A DNA stretch of 64,000 bases from Roseovarius sp. W115 (GTDB lineage: Bacteria > Pseudomonadota > Alphaproteobacteria > Rhodobacterales > Rhodobacteraceae), in NCBI RefSeq assembly GCF_032842945.2, contig NZ_CP146606.1, positions 2,112,501 to 2,176,500 of the forward strand. Direction: 5' to 3'. The position numbers and the translations under genes are program-made. The number at the start of each line of letters is the position of its first letter. The first letter of the stretch is position 1. This document shows positions 7,717-61,839 of the stretch, in pieces. The notes beneath the pieces were generated by a model. That model worked only from the letters and a program-made list of their open reading frames with translations, was not told the DNA's origin and ran no database searches.

Positions 7717-7947
7717 GATCTACCCTGAAATTGGCAGCATTGCTTTGCGCTCAGCATACTATCGCGGAACACAGCCGTCACCGGTCTTTTGCGATGCGAA
7801 CTTCTTTGGTCGCGTTGGCTGAGCTATTTTGCGCAAAACCAACGGGACCAAGTGCTTATAGAGAATTCTCAAGACATTATGTGGGCTTGACCAAATCTTG
7901 TCACACCGCCATGAAACGCAGAACGGAAAATTTGCGAACAAGGTGAC

Positions 7948-9744
7948 ATGGTACGCAGGGCCGAGAATGGCGCGGATATGCTGGATCGGGAGAAGTCAAA
8001 GCAAATAGGCGCTTTGGCGGCGATCTGGCCGTTTATCAAACCGTATCGATTATTGCTCACAGCCGCGCTTCTTGCGCTTGTTGCGACGGCCAGCGTATCG
8101 CTTGTGCTGCCTTTGGCCGTGCGCCGCGTTGTGGATAATTTTTCGGTCGAAGATGGTACAATTCTCGACCAGTATTTCTTGGCAGCCGTGGGTATTGCCG
8201 GGCTATTGGCGATAGGGACGGGCCTGCGCTATTTGTTGGTCAGTCGCCTGGGAGAACGTGTTGTAGCGGACCTTCGCAAAGCGGTATTTGGTCGTGTGAT
8301 CGGCATGAGCCCCAGCTTTTTCGAGCGCAATCTGACGGGTGAAATTCTCAGCCGAGTGACCACGGACACCACGCTCATTCAATCCGTTATTGGCTCGTCA
8401 ATTTCGATTGCGCTGCGCAACCTGCTGATTTTCTTGGGTGGGTTGGTTTTCATGTTGGTCACATCGGCCAAGCTCACGGGAATGGTGCTTTTGCTGGTGC
8501 CATTGGTGATCGTCCCGATCCTTGTGCTAAGCCGAAAACTGCGCCGCCTGAGCAAGGAAAACCAGGATTGGATTGCGGCGAGCTCTGGCAACGCGTCCGA
8601 GGCTTTGTTGAACGTTCAAACGGTGCAGGCGTTCACCCATGAAGAGGCCAGCCGAGGCGCGTTCAATAGCGTAACCGAGAAGAGTTTTCATGTCGCCAAG
8701 CATCGCGTGAACGTCCGGGCACTTATGACGGTGATTGTCATTTTCCTGGTGTTTACCGGGATTGTCAGCGTTCTTTGGATCGGTGCGCGAGACGTTCGTG
8801 CTGATTTGATGAGCGCAGGCACGCTCATTCAGTTTGTGATCTACTCGGTCATGGTGGCCGGTGCTGTTGCGGCTTTGTCTGAAATATGGGGCGAATTGCA
8901 GCGGGCGGCTGGGGCTTCCGAGCGTCTGGTCGAACTTTTGCAGGCCGAGGATGAATTGGAGGATCCCGTTTCGCCGGTCGCGCTGCCCAAACCTGTAAAA
9001 GGGCGCATAGCCTTTGAGGACGTAAGCTTCACATACCCCGCAAGACCGGATGCGCCTGCTTTGGATCGGTTCAATCTTGTGATCGAGCCGGGTGAAACCA
9101 TAGCGCTTGTTGGACCGTCCGGCGCAGGAAAAACCACCGTGATCCAACTCATCCAGCGGTTTTATGATCCGCAAGCCGGGCAAGTGACTCTGGATGGTGT
9201 GGCTTTGCCTGATATGGCGCGCCCGGAATTTCGGGCTGCTTTGGCCCTTGTGCCACAGGAACCGGTGATCTTTGCCACCTCGGCGCGGGACAATATTCGA
9301 TTTGGTCGCACGGATGCCAGCGATGCCGAGGTTGAAGCCGCGGCGAAGACGGCTTGGGCCCATGACTTTGTCGCAGCCTTGCCCGAGGGGTACGACAGCT
9401 ACCTCGGAGAGCGCGGTGTGATGCTTTCAGGCGGGCAAAAGCAACGTGTCGCGATTGCACGAGCTATTTTGCGGGACGCGCCCGTACTGCTTTTGGATGA
9501 GGCCACATCAGCACTTGATGCTGAAAGCGAACGGGCGGTGCAAACGGCAGTGGACGCTCTTGCCAAGGAACGGACGACTGTGATCGTCGCCCACCGCCTG
9601 GCGACTGTAAAAAAAGCCGACCGGATCATTGTAATGGATGCCGGTCGGATCGTAGCACAAGGCACGCATGATAGTCTGGTTTCCGAAGGTGGACTTTATG
9701 CACGACTGGCGCGGCTGCAATTCACCGACGGCGAAGCGGCGTAA
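7948..9744 (+). CDS. ABC transporter, fused permease and ATPase (exporter half)
   Basis: A half-transporter of the ABC exporter class: about six membrane helices in residues 25-310 followed by one nucleotide-binding domain. Walker A is GPSGAGKTT at residues 389-397, then the Q-loop region LVPQEPVIFATSARDNIRFG, the signature LSGGQKQRVAIARA, Walker B VLLLDEATSALD and the H-loop IVAHRLATVKKAD. At 598 residues it probably works as a homodimer exporting a lipid, drug or peptide, as in the MsbA/LmrA-like group. ATG 7948 follows AGGTG at 7941. No substrate clue comes from the neighbours. Confidence 0.88.
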   Translation: MVRRAENGADMLDREKSKQIGALAAIWPFIKPYRLLLTAALLALVATASVSLVLPLAVRRVVDNFSVEDGTILDQYFLAAVGIAGLLAIGTGLRYLLVSRLGERVVADLRKAVFGRVIGMSPSFFERNLTGEILSRVTTDTTLIQSVIGSSISIALRNLLIFLGGLVFMLVTSAKLTGMVLLLVPLVIVPILVLSRKLRRLSKENQDWIAASSGNASEALLNVQTVQAFTHEEASRGAFNSVTEKSFHVAKHRVNVRALMTVIVIFLVFTGIVSVLWIGARDVRADLMSAGTLIQFVIYSVMVAGAVAALSEIWGELQRAAGASERLVELLQAEDELEDPVSPVALPKPVKGRIAFEDVSFTYPARPDAPALDRFNLVIEPGETIALVGPSGAGKTTVIQLIQRFYDPQAGQVTLDGVALPDMARPEFRAALALVPQEPVIFATSARDNIRFGRTDASDAEVEAAAKTAWAHDFVAALPEGYDSYLGERGVMLSGGQKQRVAIARAILRDAPVLLLDEATSALDAESERAVQTAVDALAKERTTVIVAHRLATVKKADRIIVMDAGRIVAQGTHDSLVSEGGLYARLARLQFTDGEAA

Positions 9745-17279: not shown

Positions 17280-17685
17280 GTTTGGTACTCAAATAACTTG
17301 AAAAAAGCTGGGGACTTTTAACAAACTCACATTCAGAAAAGAACGCGACATCGCCATGAACATGTTGTGAAAAACCTGTGACAGTTCAAAGGTTATTCCT
17401 CGGCACGCCCATTCCTGTTTAAAGCGCTACGCGATAAACCTTACTCACAGATGACCGCGAAATGCAGCGCGAGACTCAATCGTTGCGCGCGTTTCGCCTT
17501 TTGCTGATGTCGCAGGTTAAAGGCAAAGCACTTTAGGCTCGCATCAAGAAAAATCTGGATTGATTTGAACTGGCTCGATGCACTCAAAGGCACCGAATGT
17601 CCTGCGGCTAACGCACACGTTTGGGTCTCATGCTGACAGCAGCTTTGCGATTTGCGCTACATCATCAGAAGCGCAAGGTCGCACA
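17280..17685. other. about 400 bases without a recognised gene
   Basis: No gene of recognisable family is seen on either strand. The minus strand ends in a strong terminator at 17251-17279, so a transcribed but non-coding segment (long 3' UTR or small RNA) is possible. A 24-codon minus-strand frame at 17289-17363 (begins MFMAMSRSFLNV) ends just before that terminator but lacks a convincing ribosome site. I found no tRNA, tmRNA, RNase P or SRP RNA signature. Confidence 0.35.
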
Positions 17686-17829
17686 TTATTCTGCAGGCGT
17701 GTCTTTGGCTTCGCGCTTTTTGGAGGCGCCAAACAAGGTGCCGGGAAAGATATCCTTGAGCATTTTGCCCATCAGCGCTGCGCCGAACAAAACCATCAAC
17801 CCGATGGCAACCATCACAAACGTATCCAT
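17686..17829 (-). CDS. 47-residue membrane protein
   Basis: A very short gene with an ATG preceded by GAGGG (AGAGGGATACATTC then ATG) and a TAA stop. Residues 4-20 (FVMVAIGLMVLFGAALM) form one membrane helix, followed by GKMLKDIFPGTLFG and a charged tail SKKREAKDTPAE. The ribosome site, the clean hydrophobic-then-charged design and the codon use support a real gene. The function is unknown. It stands alone between the TetR unit and the DUF1045 gene. Confidence 0.6.
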   Translation of the reverse strand: MDTFVMVAIGLMVLFGAALMGKMLKDIFPGTLFGASKKREAKDTPAE

Positions 17830-17996
17830 GAATGTATCCCTCTATTCGTAGAATTCCGACAGGCTGCGTAGTTAAGGAAAAGGGCGAGAAAATGACCAAA
17901 TTGGCGCGTTTGTGGTCATAGCTGGAGGGTACAAGCCTTCAGATAGCGGTGGAGTGCACGCCCGAAAGTCAGATAAACATCTGAAATCATTATACC

Positions 17997-18683
17997 TTAG
18001 CCTTGCAAAGCCAGCCGTTGGATCAGATGAAACCGTCCTTGGGTGTCCTCGCCAACAAGGCTGAGCGCATCGACATCAAAGGGGCGGGGTACATGCGGCA
18101 TGACATGCGACTCAAGGATGTCTTGCACAGATTTAGCCTGCGTTTTGGGCATTTTTTCGGTCAGCGTCATATGAAACCGAAAGGCATCCATCACATACGG
18201 ATACCCCCATCGCGGCAAGAGCGCGTCCTGTTCGGCGTTCAGGTTATTTGCCCGACGTTTCGCGATCTCGGCGTCTGTCAGCGGGGCGCGAAAGGGATCA
18301 AGGTCGCGTACAGCATGCGATGCGAGTGCACCAAGAGCAGATGTGTCTCCTTCTGGCACAAGCGCCAGAAATCGCCCTAAGCGCGCAAGCGCAAGGCCCT
18401 TCAACTTCACCGGTTTCAAGCCTGCACACAGCGCCTCAAACCCGGCGCAGAGATCTGCCTCGGATTGCCCTTGGGCCAGTCGGAAGGGCGGTTTGATCGT
18501 TGCATGAAAGCCGTATCTGCCTGGGGTTCGAGTGATGTTTTGCCTGATATTGGCCAGTTCCGGGATACTTGGCGGCCGTGGTATCTGTCTTGTCAAAATG
18601 TCCCAGCCAAGCCAACCGGCGCCAAACGTTGCCAAGGGGCCTGGGGCGGGGGTGAAATAAATGGCATAGCGGATAAAATTCAT
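17997..18683 (-). CDS. DUF1045 2H phosphoesterase-like protein
   Basis: A 228-residue protein of the DUF1045 family, often encoded beside phosphonate-degradation genes. The start MNFIRYAIYFTPAPGPL is family-like, so I begin at ATG 18683 although the frame stays open upstream. Two HxT/S motifs of the 2H phosphoesterase fold are visible: YGFHATIKPPFRL and FRFHMTLTEKM. The second half includes FDVDALSLVGED. No phn genes are nearby, so the substrate (probably a cyclic phosphodiester) is open. Confidence 0.82.
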   Translation of the reverse strand: MNFIRYAIYFTPAPGPLATFGAGWLGWDILTRQIPRPPSIPELANIRQNITRTPGRYGFHATIKPPFRLAQGQSEADLCAGFEALCAGLKPVKLKGLALARLGRFLALVPEGDTSALGALASHAVRDLDPFRAPLTDAEIAKRRANNLNAEQDALLPRWGYPYVMDAFRFHMTLTEKMPKTQAKSVQDILESHVMPHVPRPFDVDALSLVGEDTQGRFHLIQRLALQG

Positions 18684-18854
18684 GCGGGCCGAGCCTATCT
18701 GGGCACTTTGCTTTGTCCTGCAACGACGCAATAGCAAAGTTTGTTCTACCGGCACATGCCATGGCTTCTGTGTCGCGCGCAAGATTGCGCATCTTGTCAG
18801 TTGCAGCCTTGTGTCAGACCTGCGCATATCTTCTGAACAAAGGGAGACCCGTCG

Positions 18855-19550
18855 ATGCCCACAAAAACGTTGTTCGAGCCGCCTCAAAACCCAATGTTGC
18901 CTGTAACTGGACAGGATGCTCAGTTCCCCATCCGCCGTATCTTTTGTGTGGGGCGCAACTATGCCGCTCATGCCGCTGAAATGGGCAACGAGGTGGACCG
19001 TGAAGCGCCGTGGTACTTCAATAAATCTGCGCATGCCTATTGTGCCAGTGGCACGCAAATCCCAATGCCACCAGAGACAGAGAATTGCCACTTTGAGATG
19101 GAATTCGTCGTGGCCCTTGATGGTGAGGCGGCCAATGTAAATGTCGAGCATGCTATGGACGCGGTTTTCGGATATTGCTGCGGTATAGATCTGACGCGGC
19201 GCGACCTGCAGGCACAAGCCAAGGAAAAGCGTCGCCCCTGGGATATCGGGAAGGATTTTGAAAATGCCGCCATTCTTGGCCGCGTATCACCCAGATCGGA
19301 GTTCGGAGAGATCGGTGACCAAACAATTTGGCTCGATCACAATGGTGTGCGTGTTCAGGAGGCCCCGCTGAGTGACATGGTTTGGTCCGTGCCGGAAATC
19401 ATTGCGCATCTGTCGCGGTTTTACCGTCTTATGCCCGGAGATCTTATTATGACCGGAACACCAGCCGGTGTTGGACCGGTTGGTCCGGGAAGCCACCTTA
19501 AAGGCCAGGTAGAGGGCTTGAGCGAAGTTGAAGTTTCGTTTTCGGGATGA
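18855..19550 (+). CDS. fumarylacetoacetate hydrolase family protein
   Basis: A 231-residue FAH-superfamily enzyme, expected to cleave or decarboxylate an oxo-acid using a divalent metal. It shows the entry strand IFCVGRNYAAHAAEMG, metal ligands in HFEMEFVVALDG (two Glu) and an Asp in GYCCGIDLTRRD, the hallmark KDFENAAILG, and the late MTGTPAGVGPV loop. Length suits the single-domain bacterial type (acylpyruvase-like). AAAGGGAGA precedes the ATG. A TRAP transporter starts about 100 bases later on the same strand and may import its substrate. Confidence 0.88.
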   Translation: MPTKTLFEPPQNPMLPVTGQDAQFPIRRIFCVGRNYAAHAAEMGNEVDREAPWYFNKSAHAYCASGTQIPMPPETENCHFEMEFVVALDGEAANVNVEHAMDAVFGYCCGIDLTRRDLQAQAKEKRRPWDIGKDFENAAILGRVSPRSEFGEIGDQTIWLDHNGVRVQEAPLSDMVWSVPEIIAHLSRFYRLMPGDLIMTGTPAGVGPVGPGSHLKGQVEGLSEVEVSFSG

Positions 19551-53345: not shown

Positions 53346-54521
53346 ATGGCAAAGGAAAAGTTTGACCGCACGAAGCCACATGTGAACATTGGCACGATTG
53401 GCCATGTTGACCATGGTAAGACGACGCTGACAGCTGCGATCACGAAGCAGTTTGGCGATTTTAAAGCCTATGACGAGATTGACGGCGCGCCGGAAGAGAA
53501 GGCGCGGGGGATCACCATTTCGACGGCGCATGTTGAGTATGAGACGGAAAACCGTCACTACGCGCATGTCGACTGCCCCGGCCACGCGGACTACGTCAAG
53601 AACATGATCACCGGTGCGGCGCAGATGGACGGCGCGATCCTGGTTGTGAACGCGGCCGACGGCCCGATGCCCCAGACGCGCGAGCACATCCTTCTGGGCC
53701 GTCAGGTTGGCATTCCGTACATGGTTGTCTTCATGAACAAGGTGGACCAGGTCGACGACGAAGAGCTTCTGGAACTGGTGGAAATGGAAATCCGCGAGCT
53801 TCTGAGCTCGTATGAGTATCCTGGCGACGACATTCCGATCATCGCTGGTTCGGCTCTTGCCGCTCTGGAAGGTCGCGACGACAATATCGGGTCCGAAAAG
53901 ATCTCTGAGCTGATGGCGGCTGTGGATGAGTATATCCCGACACCTGCACGGGCTGTGGATCAGCCGTTCCTGATGCCGATTGAGGACGTGTTCTCGATCT
54001 CGGGCCGCGGCACGGTTGTGACCGGCCGTGTGGAGCGCGGTGTGATCAATGTGGGTGATGAGATTGAGATTGTCGGCATCCGCGACACCAGCAAAACGAC
54101 CTGCACGGGCGTTGAGATGTTCCGCAAGCTCTTGGACCGTGGTGAAGCGGGCGACAACATTGGCGCACTTCTGCGCGGTGTGGACCGTGAAGGTGTTGAG
54201 CGTGGTCAGGTTCTGTGTAAGCCGGGCTCGGTGACACCGCACACCAAGTTCGAGGCGGAAGCCTATATCCTGACCAAGGATGAGGGGGGCCGTCACACGC
54301 CGTTCTTCGCCAACTACCGTCCGCAGTTCTACTTCCGGACCACGGATGTAACCGGCACGGTTGAGCTTCCCAGCGGCACCGAGATGGTGATGCCGGGCGA
54401 CAACCTGAAGTTCAACGTGGAGCTGATCGCGCCGATCGCGATGGAAAACGGCCTGCGCTTTGCCATCCGCGAAGGCGGCCGTACCGTCGGCGCCGGCGTC
54501 GTGTCCAAAATCATCGAGTGA
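53346..54521 (+). CDS. tuf: elongation factor Tu
   Basis: EF-Tu delivers aminoacyl-tRNA to the ribosome. The 391 residues include G1 GHVDHGKT (19-26), [14 protein letters not shown] switch, [24 protein letters not shown], and the C-terminal [24 protein letters not shown]. Codon use here is markedly G/C-ending, as in highly expressed genes. In this lineage tuf is followed by tRNA-Trp, secE and nusG; two tuf copies per genome are usual. Confidence 0.97.
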
Positions 54522-55959: not shown

Positions 55960-56035
55960 AGGGGTATAGCTCAGCTGGTAGAGCGACGGTCTCCAAAACC
56001 GTAGGTCGCGGGTTCGAACCCTGCTGCCCCTGCCA
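55960..56035 (+). tRNA. tRNA-Trp (anticodon CCA)
   Basis: A complete 76-nt cloverleaf: acceptor AGGGGTA/TGCCCCT, D-arm AGCTCAGCTGGTAGAGC, anticodon CCA at 55993-55995, T-arm GCGGGTTCGAACCCTGC, and an encoded CCA end. It lies downstream of tuf as usual for this order and is the integration site of the element at 55990-58374. Confidence 0.95.
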
Positions 56036-56036
56036 A
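55990..56036. repeat. att repeat, left copy (3' part of tRNA-Trp)
   Basis: This 47-bp segment covers the anticodon loop through the CCA end plus one base. It recurs without mismatch at 58328-58374, as expected when an element recombines into the 3' half of a tRNA gene. Confidence 0.9.
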
Positions 56037-57281
56037 CTATCGTTCCAAATCAAACTCGACCCCGTAGTCTGTCAAATCGCTGACGTTCTTGGCGGGGTAA
56101 TTGTCGGCCCAGATTGGAAAATCCGAACTTGGTAGCATGATGGGTAAGTTGAACGGACTAGTACCAGTATCCCGAGCGAACGGAAGGTTGACCAAAAGCC
56201 CATGCGGGTGATCGTTTTCATCTTTGTGATAAAACGCTTTTGTAGCAAAGCCGGTAGCCGCTTCGAGCCTTGACGCAGCATCTTGTAATTCGATGTCGGC
56301 GTCGGTCTGCTCTCCCAAGAGCTGCTGAAGACGTCGAATTTCGCTGTAACGCATTGATTGAATCTGATCGTCCTGACCGCCATATTCCTCCAGACCTCGA
56401 CACCTTACCAGATAACCGCGCGCTAGCGACGGTTCCGCTCCGTAGACGGCGCGTAGATGCAGACAACACGCGGCTTCAATCGAATATCTCTCGTCATCGA
56501 TCTTTTTATAGAGCGTGAAAGGCATATCCTGTTTGGCTTCGACAACGAGCGTAGACATGCCGCCGTGAATACGGGATTGATCAACGGTCTGACCGTTTCG
56601 GCTGACGATCTGGCCTGATGCGAGGTACCGGTCTTCTATATTGTCGACCCAACCTTTTGCGCCAAGGTATCGGTTGTCACCGTGGTTTGCGTAAGATGCC
56701 AAAGACAACATCATGAAACGCGTGCCTTTGTTCTTGTGTGGAAAGAAACGCACGAAGTTCAGCGATATCTGGCTGGTCAAGTTATGCGGGGGGCGTTGTC
56801 CCAATGCACGACGCTGCTCGACACGGTACATAACGTAGTCGCCGTTGAGTCTTATTTCTCCTGTTGTGGAGATTGGTTCGACAATACCAGGTCTACGGTA
56901 GAGGTAATAGTCGTCGCCTGGGAGTGGGTCGAACTTTTCTCCGTAGTAAAATTCGTAGGCTTCGATCACGTATTGCAGATCTTTGGAATGAATCCGAACG
57001 TAGTGAAGCTCTTTCTTTATTCGCGCGCAAAGGTCGCTGCCTGCTGTAAACCTACTGTAATCGGTCAAATTGATGTTTTTGAATTTAGCGCTGGTGTATT
57101 TCGGTTGGTCAGGTGGGCACCCTTCGACCTCGTTCAGGCGCTCCAGAAGTGTACCGTCAAAGGCAGTCGCGATGCCATCAACAATGCCGTTGGCTTTCAG
57201 CGCGTTAAAAAATTTGAATAGCTTTAATTGTTCCGTGACTTTTTCGTCATCTGAATATGGTTCAAACTCGAAGTGCCCCAC
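56037..57281 (-). CDS. unknown 414-residue island protein
   Basis: No known family is recognised. The protein is soluble, 414 residues, GTG start with GAGGG upstream. It has a charged N-terminus (FEFEPYSDDEKVTEQLKLFKFF), aromatic-rich strands (AYEFYYGEKF, DDYYLYRRPGIVEPISTTGEIRL, DYVMYRVEQRR), ISLNFVRFFPHKNKGTRFMMLSLASYA in the middle, CCLHLRAVYG, and a helical stretch RYSEIRRLQQLLGEQTDADIELQDAASRLEAATG near 310-345. The TAG stop touches the left att repeat, so the element boundary fixes the protein's end. It is divergent from the 92-aa gene over 424 bases. Confidence 0.7.
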   Translation of the reverse strand: MGHFEFEPYSDDEKVTEQLKLFKFFNALKANGIVDGIATAFDGTLLERLNEVEGCPPDQPKYTSAKFKNINLTDYSRFTAGSDLCARIKKELHYVRIHSKDLQYVIEAYEFYYGEKFDPLPGDDYYLYRRPGIVEPISTTGEIRLNGDYVMYRVEQRRALGQRPPHNLTSQISLNFVRFFPHKNKGTRFMMLSLASYANHGDNRYLGAKGWVDNIEDRYLASGQIVSRNGQTVDQSRIHGGMSTLVVEAKQDMPFTLYKKIDDERYSIEAACCLHLRAVYGAEPSLARGYLVRCRGLEEYGGQDDQIQSMRYSEIRRLQQLLGEQTDADIELQDAASRLEAATGFATKAFYHKDENDHPHGLLVNLPFARDTGTSPFNLPIMLPSSDFPIWADNYPAKNVSDLTDYGVEFDLER

Positions 57282-57705
57282 TTTACCCTCAAACAGTCGT
57301 CAACCGAATCATTGCAACATTAGGTGGAGCTACCTGATCTGCCAACCTTTTAGGGTGACCACCCTAGTAGTGTCTCAAAAATCTTAAGAGGCGTAGAAGC
57401 CACCTTGCTTTTGCCTTCCGTGCTCAAGCCAGAGGTGCGGACTTAGGAAAGTGCTCCTAACGCGAGAACAATTCAGGGTGATTTGAATTTATTGTTTCTC
57501 ATCAAGGAGTAATCTCGCGTTTTGGGACAGGCGGGTGGTTTGGTCCGAAAGTTTTCTTGCGAGAAGAAGAGGTGCCGCGCAATATCAATACGTCATCAAT
57601 TGTTCGGCACCCCTCCAAGGAGTTAGCGCTCCTTGTACAAAGGTAACCTTGGTGTGGCGCTGGGACAAGTGGTGATGAACGCAACGCTCAAATGGGAGAA
57701 GTCCA
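57282..57705. other. divergent control region of the island with stem-loops
   Basis: No gene is seen in this 424-base gap between the two divergent island genes. Two adjacent stem-loops lie at 57569-57635 on the plus strand. GAGGTGCCG pairs with CGGCA-CC-CCCTC (two bulged C) and encloses about 27 bases; then CAAGGAG/CTCCTTG encloses TTAGCG. They end 70 bases before the 92-aa gene and could be its leader or a separate small RNA. Confidence 0.45.
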
Positions 57706-57984
57706 ATGGGTAACATCACTAACCTTGAAACCGTGGAACTGGCGTTCCGCTATCTGGGACTGGGGTCTCTGCTTGGTAAAGCTTGGGGACTGTTTCGCAT
57801 CTTTCTGCAATTTGTCATCGACTTCATGATCATGACTTTCCTCAGCGACACTGAGGAAGACGGTGATGGCGGCGAGGGGGCGGACGAGCCGGAGTTTTGG
57901 GTCAGCACGACGAGACCCTCTTACGAGCGGGACGAAGCCCCGCAGTCGAACATATACAACTGCAACGACTACGCCATGGGCTAA
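57706..57984 (+). CDS. 92-residue island protein with hydrophobic segment
   Basis: A short gene with GGGAGAAG upstream of its ATG. Residues about 12-46 (AFRYLGLGSLLGKAWGLFRIFLQFVIDFMIMTFL) are hydrophobic or amphipathic and may insert in a membrane. The second half is acidic and polar (SDTEEDGDGGEGADEPEFW) and ends QSNIYNCNDYAMG. This design recalls small membrane-active toxins or holin-like proteins, but no family is recognised and the role is inference only. A terminator follows 24 bases after the stop. Confidence 0.6.
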   Translation: MGNITNLETVELAFRYLGLGSLLGKAWGLFRIFLQFVIDFMIMTFLSDTEEDGDGGEGADEPEFWVSTTRPSYERDEAPQSNIYNCNDYAMG

Positions 57985-58007
57985 GCCCAGTAGCCGAACG
58001 AGACTTC

Positions 58008-58033
58008 AAGGGGCGTCCTGCCGGGCGCCCTTT
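58008..58033 (+). terminator. terminator of the 92-aa island gene
   Basis: AAGGGGCGTCC pairs with GGGCGCCCTTT (11 pairs including G-U) around a TGCC loop. Confidence 0.75.
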
Positions 58034-58327
58034 ATGCGTTTGATATCTCATCAGTTCCCTAGCCGCTCATATACCGAACCTCGGGCACCGGCCTTGTCTG
58101 TATCCGACCTCAGGTCGATGACATGATATTGAGCAGTTCCATTGGAAGCAGCAGGCAACAATGTGCAAAGCAAGTGATTGCATACTCTTAAGTGTCTGAA
58201 ATGAATAAAATTCCAAGGAAACCTTGCTGCTGAATATAAGGTGCTAGAAGTTACACAAATTCTTACACATTTTAGAAAAAGAAAAAAATAATTATATAAA
58301 TCAATAAATTAAAGAATATGCCACCTA
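58034..58327. other. AT-rich right end of the island
   Basis: No gene is recognised in these 294 bases. The last 130 are exceptionally AT-rich, unlike the rest of the window, with runs of A around 58273-58290. This is the composition of foreign DNA or of a decayed integrase promoter/attachment region. Confidence 0.4.
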
Positions 58328-58374
58328 TCTCCAAAACCGTAGGTCGCGGGTTCGAACCCTGCTGCCCCTGCCAA
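58328..58374. repeat. att repeat, right copy
   Basis: Exact 47-bp copy of 55990-56036. It contains the tRNA anticodon loop, variable and T arms and the acceptor 3' strand with CCA, but no 5' half, so it cannot be a second tRNA gene. Confidence 0.9.
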
Positions 58375-58548
58375 ACACTTCCTCGATTTCAGACACTGCT
58401 GGTTTGCCTCGGTATTGTCGCGCCTTTCCCGGCGCTTGGCGTTCTGCGGTTTGAAGCGGGACGCGCTCCAGAGCGCTTTCAAGGCCGTTTTCGAGCCCAA
58501 GTCTCTGTTTGCGATTCCGGCGGTACGAGTTTGGGGAGGGTGTGGGTG

Positions 58549-58944
58549 TCAGAGCGCGGCGAATTGCGCGCGCTGCTCTGACCAGACAGCGGAGAAGCTG
58601 GTTTTGATCAGGTAATCGGTGGTCAGGCCGCTGGGTTGTTCGCCAAGCGTGATGGCGTCCAGAATGTCAGGAGCGATCAGTGCGAGACCGGCGACGTCCT
58701 GGACGCGGCGCGTTGATACGTTCTCGATGTCTGCGATTTCCGAAACCGGTTTGCCATCAATAATCATCGCCAACCAGCGGCGTCCCTTGGCAATATTCTG
58801 CACCAGCGTTTTGTCGATCTCCGGCGGGGGATCGCCAAGATGCAGTTTCAACTCGACACCTCGCCTGCGCATCTGGAATGGTGCTTCTATTGACAGTTCC
58901 GATGCGTTGATATTTCCCGGCAGGCACCTGCAAACGCGTTTCAT
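58549..58944 (-). pseudogene. C-terminal remnant of a serine recombinase
   Basis: A frame of 131 codons. Its second half (GRRWLAMIIDGKPVSEIADIENVSTRRVQDVAGLALIAPDILDAI, GEQPSGLTTDYL, WSEQRAQF) matches the C-terminal helix-turn-helix end of large serine recombinases common in alphaproteobacteria, where LAFLAPDIVEAI-like and WxEQR blocks are typical. The catalytic N-terminal resolvase domain is missing and the DMT gene begins 110 bases beyond its start. It lies outside the right att repeat and is probably what remains of an older element. Confidence 0.68.
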
Positions 58945-59053
58945 TTGTTCACAGAAAGGTTCGTTGGCTTGATTTGAGAATTTTCAGGATTGGTGGTGAA
59001 CTCAAATAAGCCGCCTATTCACCTTGTTCGGCGACAAAACAGTGGAACGTCCT

Positions 59054-60082
59054 ATGGCAAGTCAAAGTGAAAAGATTGTCGTCATGTCAAGCGCCCGCTT
59101 TGGCGTCGTTTTGGCTTGGGTTGCTGTTCTTATCTACGCGTCATCCAATTCCATTGTGACTCTTCTCACGAATATTGGCGCAGAAAACCTGGTATATGGA
59201 CGCAATGCGATCACGTTTTGCAATCTGCTTTTTCTTGGCTCGCTTATCTCGCTCATTCCTATGGTATTTTTCTTTTGGAGAGATTGGACGCGTGAGAATC
59301 TGCGCAAATTGACTAAGTCAGATTGGGTTTTTCTGACCACCTCCGCCTTTTTGTCCTCGGCTTTGACGCCTGGCCTGTTCTTCTTTGCCTTGGAGCATAC
59401 GACGGTTACAAACGTCGTTCTCATTGGCCGAATTGATCCCCCCTTGTTTCTACTGGCGGCAACGTTCTTGTTGAAGGAAGAACTGGACCCTTGGGCGTTC
59501 GCGGGTGGCATCATCGCTCTGGTGGGCGCGGTCGTGATGATTGCGCTGAAGGAGGACAGCACCAGTTTCTCGTTTGGCAAAGGTGAAATTGCAGCGGTTC
59601 TTGCGACACTTTCTTTCATCGCGTCCACACTTGTGACACGCATTGGTCTCAAGGGGGTGCCGCTCGGAATATTCACAATCTATCGAACAGCGCTTGGAAC
59701 CGTGGTTTACTTCACTTGGGCCATGTATCTATTTGGTCCGCATCATTTTCAGGATCTGTTCCAGCCAGTGGTTCTGAAGTGGATATGGGTTTACGCAGTT
59801 ATCGTAATCATAGTTGGACAATTCGCCTGGAACCTCGGCCTAAAATACGCCAAGTCCGGGGATGTGGCGCTGGCAACATCATTCTCGCCACTGGCCGCCA
59901 TTCTCATTGCAATGCTTCTTCTAGGCGAAGACCCCGGCGCCGGGCTCATTCCTGGTGCACTGGTCATTCTGCTGGGTATAGGTGTTGCTCAATACGGCCG
60001 TTGGAAACGCGATATGGCCGAAAAACAGGCGTCGCAAAAATCGCTCGAACTTGAAGGCAGCGTTAACTTTAAAGGGGCCTAG
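59054..60082 (+). CDS. DMT (EamA) family permease, paralogue 3
   Basis: A 342-residue ten-helix permease and third member of the set at 9751 and 10886, here alone. It shares VLIYASSNSIV, NLLFLGSLISLIPM, TTVTNVVLIGRIDPPLFL, SFIASTLVTRIGLKG, YLFGPHHFQDLFQPVVLKW and the C-terminal SVNFKGA. I start at ATG 59054; a TTG at 59024 is in frame. It is followed after one base by a small membrane protein gene, presumably co-transcribed. Confidence 0.85.
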   Translation: MASQSEKIVVMSSARFGVVLAWVAVLIYASSNSIVTLLTNIGAENLVYGRNAITFCNLLFLGSLISLIPMVFFFWRDWTRENLRKLTKSDWVFLTTSAFLSSALTPGLFFFALEHTTVTNVVLIGRIDPPLFLLAATFLLKEELDPWAFAGGIIALVGAVVMIALKEDSTSFSFGKGEIAAVLATLSFIASTLVTRIGLKGVPLGIFTIYRTALGTVVYFTWAMYLFGPHHFQDLFQPVVLKWIWVYAVIVIIVGQFAWNLGLKYAKSGDVALATSFSPLAAILIAMLLLGEDPGAGLIPGALVILLGIGVAQYGRWKRDMAEKQASQKSLELEGSVNFKGA

Positions 60083-60083
60083 A

Positions 60084-60359
60084 ATGTTTCAATTTATCTT
60101 TTTTCACGTGTTTGAAATCTTTGTCGTGTCGGCAAGTTTAGCGATCATTGGCGTTTTGATTTTTGCGATAAGGTACAGGATGAAAGAGAATGAGAAAGAA
60201 CAAACCAATTTTGCCGACGAGGCAGCGACCAGAGAAATGATGAAGGTGCGTGAGGTCGGGATGGCGTCGGCAGGAATTGCTCAGACCTACACAACTGATG
60301 AAAAGCCGGCCGCGACAGATGACACCGAAAAAAAGCAGATAACTGAAGATTGCAAATGA
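60084..60359 (+). CDS. 91-residue single-helix membrane protein
   Basis: Starts at ATG 60084, one base after the DMT stop, with AAAGGGG upstream. Residues 4-28 (FIFFHVFEIFVVSASLAIIGVLIFA) form one or two short helices; the rest is charged and soluble (RMKENEKEQTNFADEAATREM, then TDEKPAATDDTEKKQ). No family is recognised. The tight spacing suggests a partner of the DMT permease. Confidence 0.65.
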   Translation: MFQFIFFHVFEIFVVSASLAIIGVLIFAIRYRMKENEKEQTNFADEAATREMMKVREVGMASAGIAQTYTTDEKPAATDDTEKKQITEDCK

Positions 60360-60598
60360 ACCTCTGCGCCTGACCTGCCTTTTACCGTCGCAATCGTTTC
60401 GGTGTAGTTGAGTGCGCTTCGGGCTCTCGTAAGTGCAATTTGATTTGCGCCCTTTCGCCACAATTCTGCCCGCCTGTAGACATCTTTTTGCCAGTTTTCG
60501 CCCATAGCGTGCCTTAGTCTGACGACTCGCATGCGAGGCGTTGGGTTTTTGCGTGGGGGCGTGAAACAGACACCGTGGGTGGTGAGGGTAGTGCTGCT

Positions 60599-61519: not shown

Positions 61520-61641
61520 GCTCGGCATATAGGCAACAGGGCTGCTCTGGTGAAAAACCGGGGCGGCTCTCAGCTCTTGAATTCAGTCTGCTTGCGACGT
61601 ATGTCCCGAATTGACTTCGACCCTTTCACACGGTGGATTCC

Positions 61642-61839
61642 ATGGCCGTCACCAACCCGCTTCAGTTTATCCAGCAAGTTCGCGCAGAAGTTGCCAAAGT
61701 TGTTTGGCCAACCCGGCGCGAGGTTTTGCTAACCACGATCATGGTGTTCATCATGGCGGCCCTGACGGCCGTGTTTTTTGCCTTGGTGGATCTCTTGATC
61801 CGTAGCGGGCTTGAGGGGCTTTTGGGGCTCTTCGGCTAA
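61642..61839 (+). CDS. secE: preprotein translocase subunit SecE
   Basis: Small essential subunit of the SecYEG channel, 65 residues: NPLQFIQQVRAEVAKVVWPTRREVLLTTIMVFIMAALTAVFFALVDLLI, with the conserved amphipathic VAKVVWPTRRE segment and a single helix. I start at ATG 61642, five bases after GGTGG; GTG 61633 would add three residues. It is followed by nusG, the usual order. Confidence 0.95.
   Translation: MAVTNPLQFIQQVRAEVAKVVWPTRREVLLTTIMVFIMAALTAVFFALVDLLIRSGLEGLLGLFG

Follow-up and report, generated by a model that had tools for sequence, protein, structure and literature searches.

How does a stretch of DNA that encodes no integrase come to lie between two copies of the 3' half of a tRNA gene, and which enzyme put it there? 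Islands of this kind often stand as orphans, with no mover to which they can be assigned. The island described here was found in Roseovarius sp. W115, whose 3.72-Mb genome is assembled in 2 contigs, within a stretch of 64,000 nucleotides (2,112,501-2,176,500 of contig 1) that we call the window. It lies in the interval between tuf (53346-54521) and secE (61633-61839), both identified by eye from their translations without a family search, and its target, tRNA-Trp (CCA), is the sole tRNA gene that ARAGORN finds in the 64-kb window (Table 1). The original prediction that 2.3 kb at this place lie between two perfect 47-bp copies of the tRNA-Trp 3' half was confirmed: the copies are 100% identical at a spacing of 2338, and by our own arithmetic chance alone would not be expected to give such a pair in 64 kb.

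Table 1. Features of the island and its target gene, in window coordinates.
Feature	Position	Strand	Basis
tRNA-Trp (CCA), target gene, still intact	55960..56035	+	ARAGORN; Rfam RF00005
Left core copy (attL core)	55990..56036	+	47-bp perfect direct repeat
414-aa protein, GTG start, no assigned function	56037..57281	-	ORF; homologues P0002 80%, P0003 47%
Divergent intergenic region (424 bp), moderately structured leader of the 92-aa gene	57282..57705	.	Fold z -2.3, -2.1
92-aa protein, no assigned function	57706..57984	+	ORF; homologue P0005 78%, same length; hydropathy
Probable terminator (92-aa gene), GC-rich inverted repeat with a short T run	58010..58033	+	By eye; absent from terminator scan
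Right arm-like doublet TTACACA-N5-TTACACA, 77 bp before core	58251..58269	+	
AT-rich spacer, right arm to core, 83% A+T	58274..58327	.	
Right core copy (attR core), displaced tRNA-Trp 3' half	58328..58374	+	47-bp perfect direct repeat

The tRNA-Trp region was matched in 84 of 84 genomes of the genus, the match in G048, G118 and G119 being weak and perhaps to another tRNA. Among the matches listed, only the W115 genome and G014 have the 3' half twice at 98% identity or more. An empty site in the tuf-secE interval of relatives had been proposed as a check, and we found it in G008 and G003, where the right flank directly follows a single core. The DNA after this core matches 58375-58491 (90%) and then 58926-60300 (97%) in G008, and in G003 the match reaches 58926 (88%). 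The site of G032, with a left flank 97% identical and 56036-60438 unmatched, is empty but not a clean test. No relative among the genomes searched carried the same DNA without the right repeat. The repeat and the empty site in relatives support the predicted insertion into the tRNA-Trp 3' half, and indicate that in W115 this is the site of a precise, site-specific insertion. At the same tRNA-Trp, G014 contains a 16-kb element (L036 1065-16822) with its own tyrosine integrase (PF13356 arm domain) and several genes of no known function, and a large serine recombinase of 553 aa, with Resolvase and Recombinase domains, is encoded past its right core (L036 17043-18704, minus strand); the site has therefore been used repeatedly. 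The window ORF at 58549-58944 (minus strand), compared by eye, matches the C-terminal end of this recombinase and is read as a remnant of such an enzyme, which is full length in G014.

Between the cores there are, as predicted, only two genes and no integrase, and neither the 414-aa nor the 92-aa protein matched an integrase family in the Pfam, PADLOC and PHROG comparisons. GAGGG stands upstream of the GTG of the 414-aa gene and GGGAG upstream of the ATG of the 92-aa gene, whose product has a hydrophobic stretch near residues 28-46 and an acidic C-terminal half. The GC content is 49.0% in 56037-58327 versus 56.1% in the window, and the very AT-rich tail that had been noticed was borne out by a value of 25.0% in 58200-58327. 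The leader of the 92-aa gene, previously described as structured, is indeed more so than its shuffles but only moderately, both as a 436-nt fold (z -2.34, 2 of 100 shuffles equally good) and as a 266-nt fold (z -2.06, 7 of 200 equally good). In a sliding scan with 30 shuffles each, the best 300-nt value of the island was -3.2 at 57451-57750, and Rfam gave nothing above the gathering score except tRNA.

Both genes are close to orphans, as had been expected. A search of about 5.8 billion proteins with the 414-aa protein returned itself and two relatives, P0002 (80% identity, on a 2,001-bp contig, with coinciding C-termini) and P0003 (47%, Antarctobacter, on a contig of 256,641 bp), and a profile search with this family gave no relative beyond these two; the 92-aa protein returned itself and P0005 (78%, same length, on a contig of 6,422 bp). 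The 414-aa length is conserved almost throughout, down to 47% identity, which favours a real gene. At the level of genomes, a search for the 414-aa gene hit 1 of 100 and the P0005 query 1 of 388, in both cases our own. The P0003 query matched 3 of 394 family genomes, our own and two weak relatives in G502 and G441 (E 5.4e-4 and 7.9e-4) that we judged as chance, their frames looking ordinary by eye (a sugar-nucleotide enzyme; EAL-type and other genes). Searched as DNA, the right half of the island (1,046 bp) matched 4 of 83 genus genomes and reached full length only in its own; the partial matches are 31 bp in G052 and 26-27 bp at the terminator-like stretch in G027 and G016, the 27-bp match of G027 standing after a different gene. 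A second copy of the whole unit was not found in another genome. Neither protein had a match in plasmid or phage records or a confirmed one in viral contigs, and a scan of genome contigs with A1 gave 20 stretches that fit a pattern, none of them confirmed. Nor did the two genes appear as conserved housekeeping genes elsewhere in the genomes searched.

The original prediction had also suggested a defence or toxin role. Its interpretation stood as regards the tRNA-Trp insertion, the empty site, the lack of an integrase and the near-orphan genes, but this role found no support, as the HMM searches gave only short, weak matches. For anti-phage defence families, PADLOC aligned PDC-S05 with 17 residues of the 414-aa protein (E 0.0053) and had no match for the 92-aa protein. 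The PDC-S05 match, PHROG 8120 and 905 and the Pfam hits on both proteins, all short or weak, were rejected as chance. An AlphaFold2 model of the 414-aa protein, built from 3 sequences, was unusable (mean pLDDT 38.9), and a comparison with PDB sequences gave no match up to E 1; the middle of this protein may resemble the sensor half of some HTH regulators. By analogy, we read both genes as accessory cargo, placed where a sister element in tRNA-fMet (see below) carries a YaaC-family gene, and a role of this cargo in phage conflict or defence is a guess that we hold as rather doubtful.

The right end of the island carries a signal that recurs at the ends of other elements. TTACACA doublets with N5 spacing are located 77 bp before the core in the window, 78 bp before a displaced tRNA-Phe 3' half at the right end of an element in G052, and 80 bp before the core of the tRNA-fMet element of the W115 genome, where one base is changed and the second unit reads CTACACA. 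The similarity of the window right arm extends over 31 bp (94%) with the displaced tRNA-Phe end of G052, a match that contains TTACACAAATTCTTACACATTTTA, and over 25 bp (88%, E 0.004), a short match, with the tRNA-fMet element of its own genome; beyond these right-arm matches the window has no DNA in common with the other elements. Left doublets, with N4 spacing, are found past the tRNA 3' end at +62 in tRNA-fMet, tRNA-Arg and tRNA-Trp (the latter in G100) and at +64 bp in tRNA-Phe. Of the two features of this family, the island has the first, a right doublet 77-80 bp before a tRNA 3' core, and lacks the second, a left doublet 62-64 bp after the tRNA followed by an integrase gene: near the left core, the best candidate has 5 mismatches in 14, the same as shuffles.

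With up to 3 mismatches, the 24 bases of the right arm were found in 2 of 83 genus genomes (reversed control, 0) and in 2 of 374 family genomes, our own and G371, the latter with no tRNA within the 3 kb examined. The exact 22-mer occurs in 1 stretch of a genome contig collection that may omit our own genome and in 0 of the viral contigs. A looser right arm with 1 mismatch gave 3 hits in 2 of 285 family genomes, namely both right ends of W115 and one in G240, and in viral contigs 2 stretches, neither with a tRNA. The stretch in G240 (L113, about 1495-1640) shows tandem TACACATTTTGC repeats before an apparent tRNA-Ser 3' end (by eye; no gene by ARAGORN), and is perhaps the right end of an element of another integrase family. 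The bare doublet gave 9 hits in 5 of 83 genus genomes, 6 of them at the ends described here, with 5 for the reversed control. Being so near to the control frequency it is weak alone, and the argument is carried by position and extended sequence. The three unexplained hits lie in G001 and, twice, in G037; that of G001 (C38 195021-195108) lies about 40 bp from a tRNA-Phe 3' fragment of 29 bp, and its orientation is the reverse of the expected one.

The integrase that accompanies these doublets can be recognized in G052. No tRNA was found in the 39.8 kb examined around its orphan tRNA-Phe end, mostly to the left of it; the intact tRNA-Phe, at a distance of 1.7 Mb, precedes TTACACATACCTTACACA, after which comes the gene of a 380-aa tyrosine integrase, IntPhe. 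Both places have in common a 49-bp identical core, and we therefore infer that one tRNA-Phe element was split by a rearrangement. A pelG-like frame left of the orphan end, apparently truncated by eye, would fit such an event. IntPhe scores 14.9 bits with PF00589, below the cut-off of 27.1, and matches a PHROG integrase family at E 1.8e-28. Its relatives occur in 9 of 83 genus genomes. The W115 genome contains 14 other PF00589 matches, 13 of them above the cut-off, and a single IntPhe match, 71% over residues 3-278, immediately behind tRNA-fMet, where an IS truncates it; the rest of this integrase was not found in 19.9 kb (tblastn up to E 10). A second relative in G052 (72%) follows tRNA-Arg and has one in-frame stop, and for the attR of that element there was merely a 14-base partial match within 20 kb. 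In G100, broken N-terminal pieces of IntPhe type lie right after tRNA-Trp (L084) with the doublet present, which shows that the family reached tRNA-Trp.

We looked for the doublet at 12 of 17 loci with IntPhe relatives. It is present at three loci with close, long integrases (L085, L086, L094) and absent at the ~30% relatives (L087, L088, L090-L092, L095) and at two short fragments of 63-65% identity (L089, L100), while L101 has one TTACACA, not a doublet. At E 1e-10, 24 of 72,556 plasmid records contain a relative of IntPhe, and none of 50,697 phage records does. At the end of a viral contig of 47.8 kb (L118, about 7850-8010), a 65% relative follows an apparent tRNA-Lys 3' end, with a CTCACACA/CTCGCACA pair, seen by eye, between the tRNA 3' end and the gene. 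The similar left doublets at the four genus loci with an integrase of this type or its remnant indicate that a TTACACA-arm integrase family uses tRNA-Phe, -Arg, -fMet and -Trp in the genus. No description of such an element family was found in the literature searched, mostly outside subscription journals.

The sister element in the W115 genome spans about 6.6 kb between tRNA-fMet and a 48-bp repeat (contig 1, about 1,169,076-1,175,663, IS included; L111, L086). It encodes the IS-truncated integrase, a YaaC-family protein (PF14175, E 4.2e-31), a 356-aa DnaG-type primase (CHC2 finger, E 3.4e-16) and two small proteins without a Pfam family, and also has a structured region and the right arm. Its four scanned proteins gave no relaxase, conjugation gene or AlpA match. 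The primase matches PADLOC models of the DRT class (RT_UG29, E 2.6e-26; RTasDnaG-like, E 1.8e-15), which we take as the shared primase domain and not as a defence system, and no paper linking YaaC with phage defense was found in the literature searched. As for structure, 451 nt of the fMet element chosen by eye for inverted repeats fold with z -8.7 against shuffles, and 421 nt at the G052 orphan end (L063, about 17500-19210), also chosen by eye and with a very long inverted repeat, fold with z -7.3. A sliding scan of the fMet element (30 shuffles each) reached values down to -6.5 in coding parts too, so structure is not confined to the structured region. The fMet and G052 elements have a 51-bp stretch (84%) in common.

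The explanation that we consider probable is that the island is a non-autonomous, CIME-like tRNA island of a small satellite-like family, inserted via a TTACACA-arm tyrosine integrase. Recombination by this enzyme between the circularized island and the core in tRNA-Trp would account for the tRNA gene having stayed intact and for the second, displaced 47-bp copy. The right arm and the core are kept, the integrase and the left arm doublet are missing; since the island has neither of these, the enzyme would have come from another element or from a left end lost since. At the level of sequence, the locus itself displays a precise insertion, no integrase and a right-end signal at the spacing of its relatives, and in the genus four tRNA genes, tRNA-Trp included, show the matching left-end signals together with one integrase family. 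We infer that the doublets bind the integrase and that the TTACACA-arm family made the insertion in the window. The island is probably stranded now, because the sole integrase of the family detected in its genome is truncated. Its satellite character is suggested indirectly, by the integrase and primase of the sister.

It could also be that the island is not a remnant and evolved as a one-armed hitchhiker, still mobilized in trans each time the cell acquires an element with a TTACACA-arm integrase. In the 414-aa gene the stop codon begins at the first base past the left core, and the protein ends where P0002 ends, so that random deletion is not the simplest origin, and both genes are intact and have full-length homologues elsewhere. 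Nevertheless we consider this origin unlikely: the island has no left arm, no intact helper integrase of the family was detected in its genome, and no other genome was found to hold a second copy. Between the two origins, the abutting stop codon and the C-terminus of P0002 lean to the one-armed form, and the missing left arm together with the broken or split doublet-bearing relatives leans to the loss of a left end. We would give as little credit to a fuller version, an integrase-free satellite, near the lower size limit of such elements, whose one-armed attachment site is recognized by an integrase family of several tRNA targets and in which the 414-aa protein, the membrane-prone 92-aa protein and the structured leader form a two-gene module of a new defence or phage-interference type. 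An insertion by an Arm-DNA-bind_3 (PF13356) tyrosine integrase, in which the TTACACA doublet would be irrelevant, is suggested by the 16-kb element of G014, which sits in tRNA-Trp with the same core and right flank as in the window; this element differs in the type of its integrase, the compared ends have only the core in common, and it ends with TTTTTGTGCG-type repeats instead of the TTACACA doublet, which makes such a mover highly improbable. Least credible of all is a coincidence, an old duplication or a decayed prophage piece with a chance TTACACA doublet, since bare doublets do occur at background frequency but the extended 24-base identity to the displaced tRNA-Phe end at a matching distance and the empty site with one core speak against it.

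The unit resembles several known systems. The cis-mobilizable elements (CIMEs) are defined as decayed ICEs or IMEs (PMC5704250), and like them the island lies between att cores at a tRNA 3' end and has no integration or transfer genes, none being found in its two proteins. Both cores are perfect and the right arm is kept, whereas the left end is without an arm doublet; moreover, the class implies descent from an ICE or IME, and we call the island CIME-like for its features. As regards descent, its relatives by end signals carry integrase and primase, and an ICE origin is not supported, since a scan of four sister proteins matched neither a relaxase nor a conjugation gene. By analogy, the island would work like a CIME in the sense of PMC5704250. 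PICMIs, as described in PMC10803314, are marine phage satellites with int, alpA and prim together. The fMet sister is similar in being small and in having an integrase, a primase, small unknown genes and non-coding stretches; the differences are that the island has none of the three genes and so falls outside the PICMI definition, that in the sister int is truncated and prim is of the DnaG type, with no AlpA match, that the insertion site is another one and that no helper phage is known. The tmRNA-targeted genomic islands moved by a jumbo phage (PMC12595487) likewise occupy the 3' end of a tRNA-type gene, with direct repeats, variable cargo and no autonomous transfer genes, but keep IntY, described there as required for excision, while our island encodes no integrase. 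Dependent elements of such kind have been called hitchers (PMC11389934).

End signals at fixed distances from the core may thus point to the mover of an island that has no integrase, and suggest a search route by DNA only for other integrase-less members of the family. In this sense, an integrase-less and an integrase-truncated element in one and the same genome offer a concrete case in which supply of the enzyme in trans can be tested, and the two nearly unique genes of the island are candidates for functional screening.
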